34,428 bases of DNA from Opitutaceae bacterium (lineage in GTDB: Bacteria; Verrucomicrobiota; Verrucomicrobiia; Opitutales; Opitutaceae), in the NCBI GenBank assembly GCA_023269565.1, contig JAHFTD010000017.1, positions 1-34,428 of the forward strand, written 5' to 3'. This document shows, one piece after another, positions 4,003 through 7,198 of the stretch (positions within the stretch are counted from its first letter, which is position 1; the number at the start of each line of letters is the position of its first letter). Below the pieces are notes generated by a model. That model was given only the letters and a program-made list of their open reading frames with translations. It made no database searches and was not told the DNA's origin. The position numbers were made by a program, and so were the translations under genes.

Positions 4003-6243
4003 TCACTCGTCCTTCAATTTGCGCAGTTCTTTGTCGGTGTCGCGCAGGCGGAGCGCCACGGCCTCGGCGAGGCGGGCAAAAAACATGGCGCCGACGGTGG
4101 GATTGCCGCGCGAAAGCTCGTCGAACCGCGGGCGCGCCAGCACAAACAGGTCGGTCGGCATCTCGGCGAGGGCGTCGGCGATGCGTTTGCGGCCGGTGAG
4201 GAAGCCGAGGTCGCCGAAGAAATCACCGCGGGCAAAGGAGGCGAGGCGGTGCTGTTTCTCGGTCAGGCGGAGCGGCAGGGTGATGCGCACGCGGCCGCGG
4301 CGGATGATGAACATCTCGTCGCCGCTGGCGCCGGCGCGGAAGATCGCTTCGCTGGCGGGCACGCTGCGGATGGCGATGCAGGCGGCCAGGGCGTTGAGCG
4401 CGCCGGCGTCGAACCTCCGGAAAAGGTCGATCGCACTGAGGTCGAGGGGGGCCTCCTCAGCGCGGGCGCCGTGGCTGTGTTCGGCCAGGATGGTGTTCTC
4501 GGCCCACTCGAGCGCCTCATCGCGACTGCCAACCAGCAGCGCGCCGGCGTCGTTTTTGCGGACCACGCCGAGGTCGTCAAAGTAGTTACGGAGATTCTGG
4601 CCGCTCGGGAGGCTCTTCGGCAGGCCGGAGAGGATGAGCCGGCCACCGCGCTCGGCGAGCTGGTCGGCCATCTGCTCGAGGATGTGCGCGGCGGTAAAAT
4701 CGACCGTCTGCACGCGGCGCATGTCGAGGATGAGGTAACGGCAGCGCTTGAGGTCGGTCTCGAGTTCGGAGCGGAGCTGGTCGGTGGTGCCGAAGAAGAG
4801 GCTGCTTTGCAGCACACAGACGATGGTCTGGCCGCCATACTCCTCGAGGATGGCGCGCTCTTCCGGCAGGCGGCGCTGCTTGGAAAACGATTCGGAGCCG
4901 GTAACCTTGCTCCGGATGACACTGCCGCGGATCTGCTCGCGGATAAACAGCACCACGGACAGCAGCACGCCGACGCCGGCGGCGGCGATCAGGCTGACGC
5001 TTACGGCGGTGGCCACCACGGCGACGATCACGGCGAAATCCAGCAGCGTGCCCTTGTGCTTCAGCAGTTGGAAAGTGTTCCGGTCAATCATCCGGAACCC
5101 AACGACTACCAGAATGCCGCCCAGCGCCGCGAGCGGCACCCAGCCAATCAAGCTGCCGAGCAAAACAAAGGCGACGAAGACGAAGACCGCCTCGAGGATC
5201 CCCGAGAGCCGGGTTTGCCCGCCGCTCGTGACGCTGACCAGCGTTGCACCCATCATGCCGGCGCCGGGCACGCCGCCCGCCAGAGCGGAAGCGAGATTGC
5301 CGAGGCCCTGCCCGAGCAGCGTGCGGTTGGAATTGTGCCGCGTGCGCGTGAGCGCGTCGACGACCACGCAGGTCTTCAGCGTGTCCATCGAAAGCAGGAC
5401 CGAGAGGGTCAGGGCCGGCATCAACATCGCGCGGGCATCGCTCCAAGTCAGCGAGGAAAGAGCATGCCATTGGGCGGAGAGGCCGTGGAGAATCCGGCCG
5501 AGACCGGCCTCGAGGCGGCCGATGACGAATTTGTTGCCGGCGAGGGTGCCGAGGTCCGGGCGCAACGTCGCGGCCAGTGCAGCATAAACCGCCAGGCCGG
5601 CCATCAAACCAATGATGGCCGCGGGAATCACCTTGGTAACGCGGACGGCGCCAGCCATCGCTGCAATAGTGGCCAGCGTGATGATGACCGAAGGCCATTG
5701 CCAGAGAGCGGGGGAGACCAGCCCGTGCCATGCGCCGGTGCCCGCCGCCAAGCCGAGGACGGAGGGGATTTGTTTATACAGGATGAGGAGGCCGACGCCG
5801 CTCAGGTAACCCGAGACGACAGGGAAGGGGATGAACTTGATCAAGGTGCCGCCACCAATCAAACCGTAGGCGATCTGCAGGCTGGCGGAAATCAACGCGG
5901 CCAGCGTCATCAACAACACGATGTGCTCGACGCTGCCGTTGCCGCCGGCCGCCAGCTCGGCGGCCAGCGCACCCATGACCGCCGCGGCGGGCGCGCAGGG
6001 CGAGCTAATGATGCGCGGCGCGCCGCCGAACACGGAGGCGACGAGCCCGATGACCACCGCGCCGACCAGGCCCGCCGTCGCACCATAGCCCGCCTGCGCC
6101 GGGCCGAGTGCCGCGAAGGTGGCGACGCCGAATGCAATCGCCGAAGGGATCGCCACCAGCATGGCGGCCAGCCCGCCCCAGAAATCTCCCAGCCTGGACG
6201 GCGCGGTTGGCTCGCGGGACGGGGTCGGAAGGTTGTTGGTCAT
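4003..6243 (-). CDS. SulP family anion transporter with C-terminal STAS and CRP-like cyclic-nucleotide-binding domains
   Basis: Start trimmed to MTNNLPTPSREPTAPSRLGDFWGGLAAMLVAIPSAIAFGVATFA; SulP core, STAS region (LILDMRRVQTVDFTAAHILEQMADQLAERGGRLILSGLP), cNMP-binding region (DLFRRFDAGALNALAACIAIRSVPASEAIFRAGASGDEMFIIRRGRVRI...ARGDFFGDLGFLTGRKRIADALA). Confidence 0.9.
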   Translation of the reverse strand: MTNNLPTPSREPTAPSRLGDFWGGLAAMLVAIPSAIAFGVATFAALGPAQAGYGATAGLVGAVVIGLVASVFGGAPRIISSPCAPAAAVMGALAAELAAGGNGSVEHIVLLMTLAALISASLQIAYGLIGGGTLIKFIPFPVVSGYLSGVGLLILYKQIPSVLGLAAGTGAWHGLVSPALWQWPSVIITLATIAAMAGAVRVTKVIPAAIIGLMAGLAVYAALAATLRPDLGTLAGNKFVIGRLEAGLGRILHGLSAQWHALSSLTWSDARAMLMPALTLSVLLSMDTLKTCVVVDALTRTRHNSNRTLLGQGLGNLASALAGGVPGAGMMGATLVSVTSGGQTRLSGILEAVFVFVAFVLLGSLIGWVPLAALGGILVVVGFRMIDRNTFQLLKHKGTLLDFAVIVAVVATAVSVSLIAAAGVGVLLSVVLFIREQIRGSVIRSKVTGSESFSKQRRLPEERAILEEYGGQTIVCVLQSSLFFGTTDQLRSELETDLKRCRYLILDMRRVQTVDFTAAHILEQMADQLAERGGRLILSGLPKSLPSGQNLRNYFDDLGVVRKNDAGALLVGSRDEALEWAENTILAEHSHGARAEEAPLDLSAIDLFRRFDAGALNALAACIAIRSVPASEAIFRAGASGDEMFIIRRGRVRITLPLRLTEKQHRLASFARGDFFGDLGFLTGRKRIADALAEMPTDLFVLARPRFDELSRGNPTVGAMFFARLAEAVALRLRDTDKELRKLKDE

Positions 6244-6377
6244 GTCGCGCTCTCTTTGCACACCGCCCGGCCGGTAGTGCCGGGTTCGTAAACAGATTAC
6301 GTGAATCGTTGCCCGATGGGCAGCCAGAAATTCAGCAGGCCAGCGCAATAAACGCGCAGACTTTTTCGAAAAAATCA

Positions 6378-6553
6378 GCTGGCCAGCCGCAAAAAATATG
6401 CGGCTAAGCATTGTGCCCGCATGGGCCAGCTTTCTGGCCCGTGTTTTTATTTAGCACCAACGCAGCGAACGACCCGAAGCCCGTTTCGGTCCTCCGGCAT
6501 GGAGGGACGGCCGATTGGCCGTCCGCATCGGAACCGGTCCGTCGGGAGACGGA
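6378..6553. other. closely spaced perfect hairpins in non-coding DNA, candidate structured RNA or leader
   Basis: GCTGGCCAGC palindrome 6378-6387; AGCCGCA/TGCGGCT 6385-6405; GGGCCAG/CTGGCCC 6423-6440; CCGAA/TTCGG 6474-6489; CCTCC/GGAGG 6491-6505; GGACGGCC-gatt-GGCCGTCC 6505-6524; TCCGTC-ggga-GACGGA 6538-6553. Confidence 0.6.
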
Positions 6554-6582
6554 TTCTCCAAGGTCCGGAGGCTTTCATCGCG

Positions 6583-6883: not shown

Positions 6884-7198
6884 ATGTCAACCGCACCAAA
6901 GAATGCCTTGGCGCAGCTGACTCAGGCCATGCAGGCTTGGGAGACGCTGCGCCAGACAAAGTCCTTCACCGGGATGACGCTCGCGCAGTTCAAGGCGAAG
7001 CTCCAACCCAGCCTCACAGCCCGCGCCAATCAAGCGGTGATCGAGGCGCAGATGACCGCCGCGCTGGATCAGCGCGACAATACCGACAAAATCTCGGCGG
7101 CGATCGTGCTGCTGGTCGTCAACGCCGTGAAGGGTGATCCGGAGGAAGGGAAGGACGGCGAGCTGTTTTATGAAGTCTTTTCTAAGGGAGGCGACTGA
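6884..7198 (+). CDS. small predicted-helical orphan protein (104 aa) directly downstream of the 21-nt array
   Basis: Strong Shine-Dalgarno AAAAGGAG about 10 nt upstream of ATG 6884; MSTAPKNALAQLTQAMQAWETLRQTKSFTGMTLAQFKAKLQPSLTARANQAVIEAQMTAALDQRDNTDKISAAIVLLVVNAVKGDPEEGKDGELFYEVFSKGGD; no family recognised. Confidence 0.8.
   Translation: MSTAPKNALAQLTQAMQAWETLRQTKSFTGMTLAQFKAKLQPSLTARANQAVIEAQMTAALDQRDNTDKISAAIVLLVVNAVKGDPEEGKDGELFYEVFSKGGD

Follow-up and report, generated by a model that had tools for sequence, protein, structure and literature searches.

The locus and its hairpins

We analysed a 34,428-nucleotide stretch of Opitutaceae DNA (the window; contig JAHFTD010000017.1), in which a 651-nt intergenic region lies between two divergent genes (Table 1). 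One encodes a protein of the sulfate permease family that has a STAS domain and, at its C terminus, a cyclic-nucleotide-binding domain. The other encodes a 104-aa protein, which matched nothing in Pfam or NCBIfam and whose homologues occur in 4 of the 199 other sampled genomes of the family, in four different genera, and nowhere else among the 388 sampled genomes of the phylum. Between them is an array of palindromic units (for example, GTATCGCGATACC) with autocorrelations of 0.47–0.50 at 21, 42 and 63 nt, compared to a shuffle 95% level of 0.36. Palindromic arrays with a 21-nt period also lie upstream of the 104-aa gene homologues in G013 and G177 (L004 2353–2700 and L005 1150–1380 were examined), the unit being different in G177 (CATTTC..GAAATG); G082 has 42/21 spacing without a significant period, and G051 has none. 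A predicted terminator-like hairpin, preceded by an imperfect direct repeat and followed by TTTTATTT, is the nearest terminator call to 6474–6560. No plus-strand gene is evident just upstream of it (6290–6450), in a segment that possibly yields a small transcript.

Table 1. Features of the intergenic region and its flanking genes, in window positions (REP, repetitive extragenic palindrome)
Feature	Position	Strand	Basis
Sulfate-permease-family gene	4003–6243	−	
Imperfect 17-nt direct repeat	6328 and 6371		
Predicted strong terminator-like hairpin	6419–6444	+	
Stem-loop 1, CCGAA/TTCGG, outside the element	6474–6489		shuffles, own-genome flanks
Stem-loop 2, CCTCC/GGAGG, not conserved	6491–6505		shuffles, own-genome flanks
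Probable REP dimer of the REPIN/BIME kind: inverted pair of GGAG-footed hairpins in outer stem TGGAG (6500–6504)/CTCCA (6556–6560)	6500–6560		covariance model, pair counts
REP unit 1: T, foot GGAG (6501–6504), stem GGACGGC (6505–6511)/GCCGTCC (6518–6524), loop CGATTG	6500–6524	+	sequence, family alignment
Stem-loop 3	6505–6524		
Spacer GCATCGGAACC between REP units	6525–6535		alignment
REP unit 2, minus-strand reading TGGAG AATCCGT CTCCCG ACGGACC	6536–6560	−	sequence, alignment
Stem-loop 4	6538–6553		
Palindromic array	6583–6792		
Gene for the 104-aa protein	6884–7198		

An earlier note on this DNA had listed four perfect stem-loops immediately upstream of the array, and we located each of them exactly where it had been placed. 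They have 5, 5, 8 and 6 bp with loops of 6, 5, 4 and 4 nt, respectively, and two added G–T pairs can lengthen the stem of the fourth. Stems of at least 5 bp exceeded the expectation from dinucleotide shuffles of the region (4 observed in 80 nt, 0.96 expected, P = 0.015), and an equal density was reached in 10 of 3435 sliding 80-nt windows; the second and third stems are not independent, because base 6505 is common to both. The stem density is real and mildly above chance, but it is not decisive. When folding was compared to shuffled controls, the whole 91 nt performed only weakly better than its shuffles (z = −1.75), and the segment 6500–6560 folded better than its shuffles both as RNA (z = −2.8) and as DNA (z = −2.7). 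This segment, called the element below, has an outer stem that was absent from the earlier list. The element shows no link to the array, a separate repeat whose 21-nt period is absent from the 6474–6553 region.

A dispersed family of GGAG-footed dimers

A DNA search of 200 family genomes with the intergenic region gave a single weak match, over 6500–6560, to an intergenic site in G129 (contig C27) that lies 3′ of a gene reading as peroxiredoxin (a name from sequence reading alone); no orthologous intergenic region was found among these genomes. An earlier, stricter pattern, applied to 57 relatives, had matched only the window itself. As a lead only, we took the element to be of the same kind as repeats of verrucomicrobial genomes, and this was then tested by a search with the pattern GGAGGGACGGCCNNNNNGCNGTCC.

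At one mismatch, the pattern is present in 27 of the 200 family genomes, with at least 64 matches in G046 (0 for a reversed-pattern control) and 22 each in G076 and G099. A scan of GTDB returned at least 119 stretches, and the matches listed come mostly from Opitutaceae, other Verrucomicrobia, Kiritimatiellae, Lentisphaerae and Victivallaceae; a minority come from unrelated bacteria and are probably due to chance. Repeat-like matches beside a G129 transposase (L194/L205) were spurious, in sequence that reads as coding and does not hold the element.

The typical dimer consists of T-GGAG, a 7-bp stem enclosing a 6-nt loop, a spacer and an inverted unit ending in CTCCA. Dimers are frequent among the copies, their spacers ranging from 2 to about 40 nt, and many other copies are single units; their loops are mostly CTCCGT, CTCTGT, CTCCGC or CTCCCG. 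The ends of the dimers are sharp and their flanks unrelated. At the 5′ boundary, homology starts at the T before GGAG in 143 of 193 cases, and because position −2 is unconserved, we rejected a reading of the foot as GTGG. Each half of the dimer, with its GGAG foot directly 5′ of the stem, has the anatomy of a REP: the palindromes are short, within the REP range of about 20–40 nt, are repeated many times per genome and are paired as two inverted units across a short spacer. With GGAG as its foot, the family falls outside the GTAG REP superfamily, which is defined by GTAG or GTGG-type variants. The loop GGGA, which the earlier note had likened to a GNRA loop, is not a conserved GNRA loop; read from the opposite strand, these bases form the centre of CTCCCG, one of the variants of the CTCCGT loop of the family.

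Two hairpins supported by compensated base pairs

We built a covariance model, R1, from 19 dimers of other genomes, with the window excluded. Applied to the window, it identified 6500–6560 at 51.2 bits (E = 4.4e-10), and the next-best match in the window had E = 0.2. Because the aligned sequences are related and were partly picked for having the two-hairpin architecture, the shuffle controls that follow are not probabilities: in the R1 set, 97.8% of cells are paired and 40 cells are changed on both sides (13.6 in shuffles, with 0 of 500 shuffles as high), and in a second set that includes the window and the copies from its own genome, 96.0% are paired and 36 cells are compensated (9.9 in shuffles). 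Slid controls gave pair counts far lower than the real alignment, and a single long-hairpin fold paired 81% and fitted worse than two hairpins. The compensatory changes that the earlier note had proposed to look for are thus present, but they come from dispersed copies beside unrelated genes and not from orthologous intergenic regions. Covariation cannot tell DNA hairpins from RNA hairpins.

Copies in the window's genome and at orthologous sites

When applied to the window's own genome, model R1 returned about 11 sites (E < 0.002); one of these is a single unit next to sequence that reads as a tRNA gene. Most of these copies match one 52-nt consensus in unrelated flanks, and several lie a few nucleotides 3′ of a stop codon. 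Nine of the 10 sites checked are outside coding-like open reading frames and the tenth is at a doubtful start, so that the repeat is mostly extragenic in this genome, with exceptions in others. The first two stem-loops have no counterpart in the flanks of the other own-genome copies, and the second makes use of the foot (GGAG) that belongs to REP unit 1. Such short stems arise about once per region in shuffles, and both are compatible with chance neighbours. Of the proposed four-stem cluster, stems 3 and 4 belong together in one structure, and stems 1 and 2 lie outside it.

In the window copy, the two REP units point towards each other, and their GGAG feet are on the outside. The loop of unit 1 is degenerate compared to the family loop CTCCGT, in unit 2 the outermost two pairs of the stem have decayed to A–C on the minus strand (G–T on the plus strand), and the spacer exceeds by 9 nt the GC spacer that the closest relatives have in the alignment. 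By these three features, the window copy reads as a worn, degenerate REP dimer.

Copy number within one genus ranges from 0 (G146) to 73 two-strand matches, or about 37 dimers (G037 and G197). In G160, a dimer lies within a 105-bp in-frame insert in tsaD, and the orthologue in the window's genome (Pfam TsaD, 1e-72) does not have this insert; it has its own dimer just past the stop codon, where G160 has none. Such filled and empty orthologous sites are consistent with movement. At a ybeY-like gene (named from its sequence reading), G174 and G197 have a dimer at one common site, so some copies are inherited; the copies kept orthologously in two species show that some are stable, which counts against reading the repeat as mobile. 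The REP dimers inside TsaD and the YbeY-like protein (L288 633–1838 and L275 1206–1721) are translated in frame, and add similar peptides (LEGRSPDRPRSAGRPTLQ and VEGRSPHRPRSARRPTLQ).

A RAYT clade beside GGAG-footed hairpins

At two loci, L241 and L022, genes of the RAYT (REP-associated tyrosine transposase) type are bordered on either side by GGAG-footed hairpins. The L241 protein has matches in 117 of 388 Verrucomicrobiota genomes, and in 20 of the best 30 RAYT loci, at least two GGAG-footed hairpins lie beside the gene (88 hairpins in all). Other feet gave 0–4 of these loci, except for GAGG, which represents GGAG sites shifted by one base; among other Y1-transposase loci, used as a control, 7 of 80 had at least two GGAG-footed hairpins. 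The RAYT protein scores above the cut-off of NCBIfam REP_Tyr_transpos and matches Escherichia coli TnpA_REP (PDB 4er8, E = 2.8e-10), with its WQ pair and guide-region R aligned to that structure. PF01797 genes in general were rejected as partners, as they mostly belong to other subclasses without GGAG hairpins. At L022 (57–5419; Kiritimatiellae), we also observed a cluster that resembles a diversity-generating retroelement, with an FGE-sulfatase-fold protein, an HRDC protein, a RAYT-like protein and a reverse transcriptase; it is riddled with GGAG-footed hairpins, several of which lie in frame within the genes for the RAYT-like protein and the reverse transcriptase.

A cognate RAYT flanked by a like repeat was thus found at the level of the class: no RAYT among the loci found was flanked by exactly the window's stem, and the putative partner of the window-type element is assigned by foot and loop. 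The window's genome gave no PF01797 or RAYT match, and the window copy is therefore probably a fossil now; since the genome is only 84% complete, this status is probable rather than certain. The lost loop, the two weakened stem pairs and the longer spacer fit such a status.

Probable switching of the foot

GTAG feet lie beside most of the more distant RAYT members in twenty further loci, and one stem, GCGGGGTGCCCTCACCCCGC (GCGGGGTG..CACCCCGC), is found with TGTAG and TGTGG in G048, with TGTGG in G037 and with TGGAG in G112. The RAYT tree was built by a quick method and has many weakly supported forks; in it, a fully supported group of 31 rows contains 21 GGAG, 9 unassigned and 1 GTAG, a second small group places three GGAG rows beside GTGG/GTAG rows, and the fewest changes between GGAG and GT[AG]G are 3. 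This minimum and the feet that share a stem suggest more than one switch of the foot, likely in the direction from GTAG to GGAG. We consider it somewhat more likely than not that the Verrucomicrobiota hold an undescribed class of REPs with a GGAG guide and a RAYT clade of its own, and that there were repeated switches of the guide among GTAG, GTGG and GGAG, one of them with the stem kept.

The main text of PMC3733652 recognises two REP superfamilies, GTAG and CGTC, and describes Opitutus terrae as highly enriched in GTAG REPs. By TnpA_REP subclass, the main text of PMC6006769 gives GT[AG]G feet for 2.2, 2.4, 2.5, 2.7 and 2.8, CnGA feet for class 3 and atypical feet for subclass 2.6 of the Bacteroidetes. 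Neither main text names a GGAG foot, and the main text of PMC6006769 does not name Verrucomicrobia. On the basis of these main texts, the GGAG foot is likely, rather than established, to be new to the literature.

Interpretation of the element

The REP anatomy of the element, together with a RAYT clade flanked by GGAG-footed hairpins, leads us to read 6500–6560 as a single degenerate copy of a REP dimer of the REPIN/BIME type that is dispersed and non-autonomous, with a probability of about 0.88. The repeat was most likely spread by a small transposase. Like REPINs and BIMEs (PMC3116915, PMC2817692), the dimers have two short GC-rich inverted hairpins, a tetranucleotide foot outside each and a short spacer, are mostly extragenic and dispersed, and are accompanied by a RAYT family flanked by a like hairpin. 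Unlike them, they carry GGAG instead of GTAG/GTGG, number in the tens rather than the hundreds, and here lie in a genome without a detected RAYT. The GTAG REPs of PMC3733652 include those of O. terrae, from the same phylum and family, and GTAG REPs are found beside more remote members of this RAYT family, with stem-sharing intermediates that link them to GGAG; the text of that paper names no GGAG foot. The TnpA_REP subclasses in the main text of PMC6006769 likewise combine HUH with a single tyrosine, and the RAYT motifs here (DHIH, WQ and YVRSNP) resemble those of subclass 2.7 ([ND]HVH, WQ and YI[LR][NQ]NP), whereas the feet given there do not include GGAG.

In E. coli, TnpA_REP requires both foot and hairpin and cuts at CT (PMC8266576). 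By analogy with this enzyme and with IS200/IS605, the hairpin would form in single-stranded DNA, such as the lagging-strand template, where a RAYT would bind the hairpin plus its foot. The last two foot bases, AG (A3–G4, unchanged from GTAG), may direct cleavage to a CT site, and the single strand, once released or copied, would insert elsewhere. If neighbouring transcripts are affected, this would be a by-product of hairpin formation.

The density of the stem-loops had been taken to suggest a folded RNA rather than isolated terminators. A compact folded element with compensatory changes is indeed present rather than isolated terminators; a functional RNA is unsupported, because copies lie dispersed beside unrelated genes, copy number swings, the hairpin type flanks transposases and no match in Rfam reaches the gathering threshold (the best relaxed match, E = 0.78, is far below the gathering score). 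A structured non-coding RNA, or a cis-regulatory leader of the 104-aa gene, would account for the stable RNA fold, the strong covariation and the position in a divergent intergenic region upstream of 6884. We nevertheless hold it very unlikely, as copies also lie in frame inside tsaD- and ybeY-like genes, the covariation serves DNA hairpins equally, and no dimer was seen upstream of the 104-aa gene homologues in the four other genomes, so that a link of the element to that gene was rejected. Since the element is scattered through the genome and its relatives and was likely spread by a transposase, we read it as a DNA repeat and not a special RNA, and an RNA role is unneeded to explain it.

A secondary use of the element as an intrinsic terminator or transcript-end stabiliser is less likely still. 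Some own-genome copies closely follow stop codons, and the main text of PMC6006769 reports effects of REPs elsewhere on termination and mRNA stability, but the window element lies between divergent genes rather than at a gene end, has no T-run after it and no terminator call within 6474–6560 on either strand, and such a role could be no more than incidental to a repeat. The reading of short stems brought together by chance in GC-rich intergenic DNA, which the modest density (one window of thousands) and the weak 91-nt fold would permit and which does hold for stem-loops 1 and 2, is refuted for 6500–6560 by the match to the independently built model and the further copies in the same genome.

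The REP-dimer reading has corrective value: a striking hairpin cluster that is probably mobile repeat DNA is therefore not to be pursued as a riboregulator. In the papers covered here, REPs are tied to GT[AG]G, CGTC or CnGA feet, and the foot is proposed to choose the cut site; GGAG-footed REPs and their RAYT clade extend the REP/RAYT system, and the in-frame copies in core genes illustrate the way in which repeats of this sort add peptides to proteins. The transposases whose hairpins keep one stem with a changed foot (G048, G037 and G112) permit a direct test of the foot rule. If the Verrucomicrobiota do hold a GGAG-guided class with a switching guide, foot and transposase would form a recognition pair that co-evolves in nature, and comparison within it would allow the guide-base cleavage rule to be tested.
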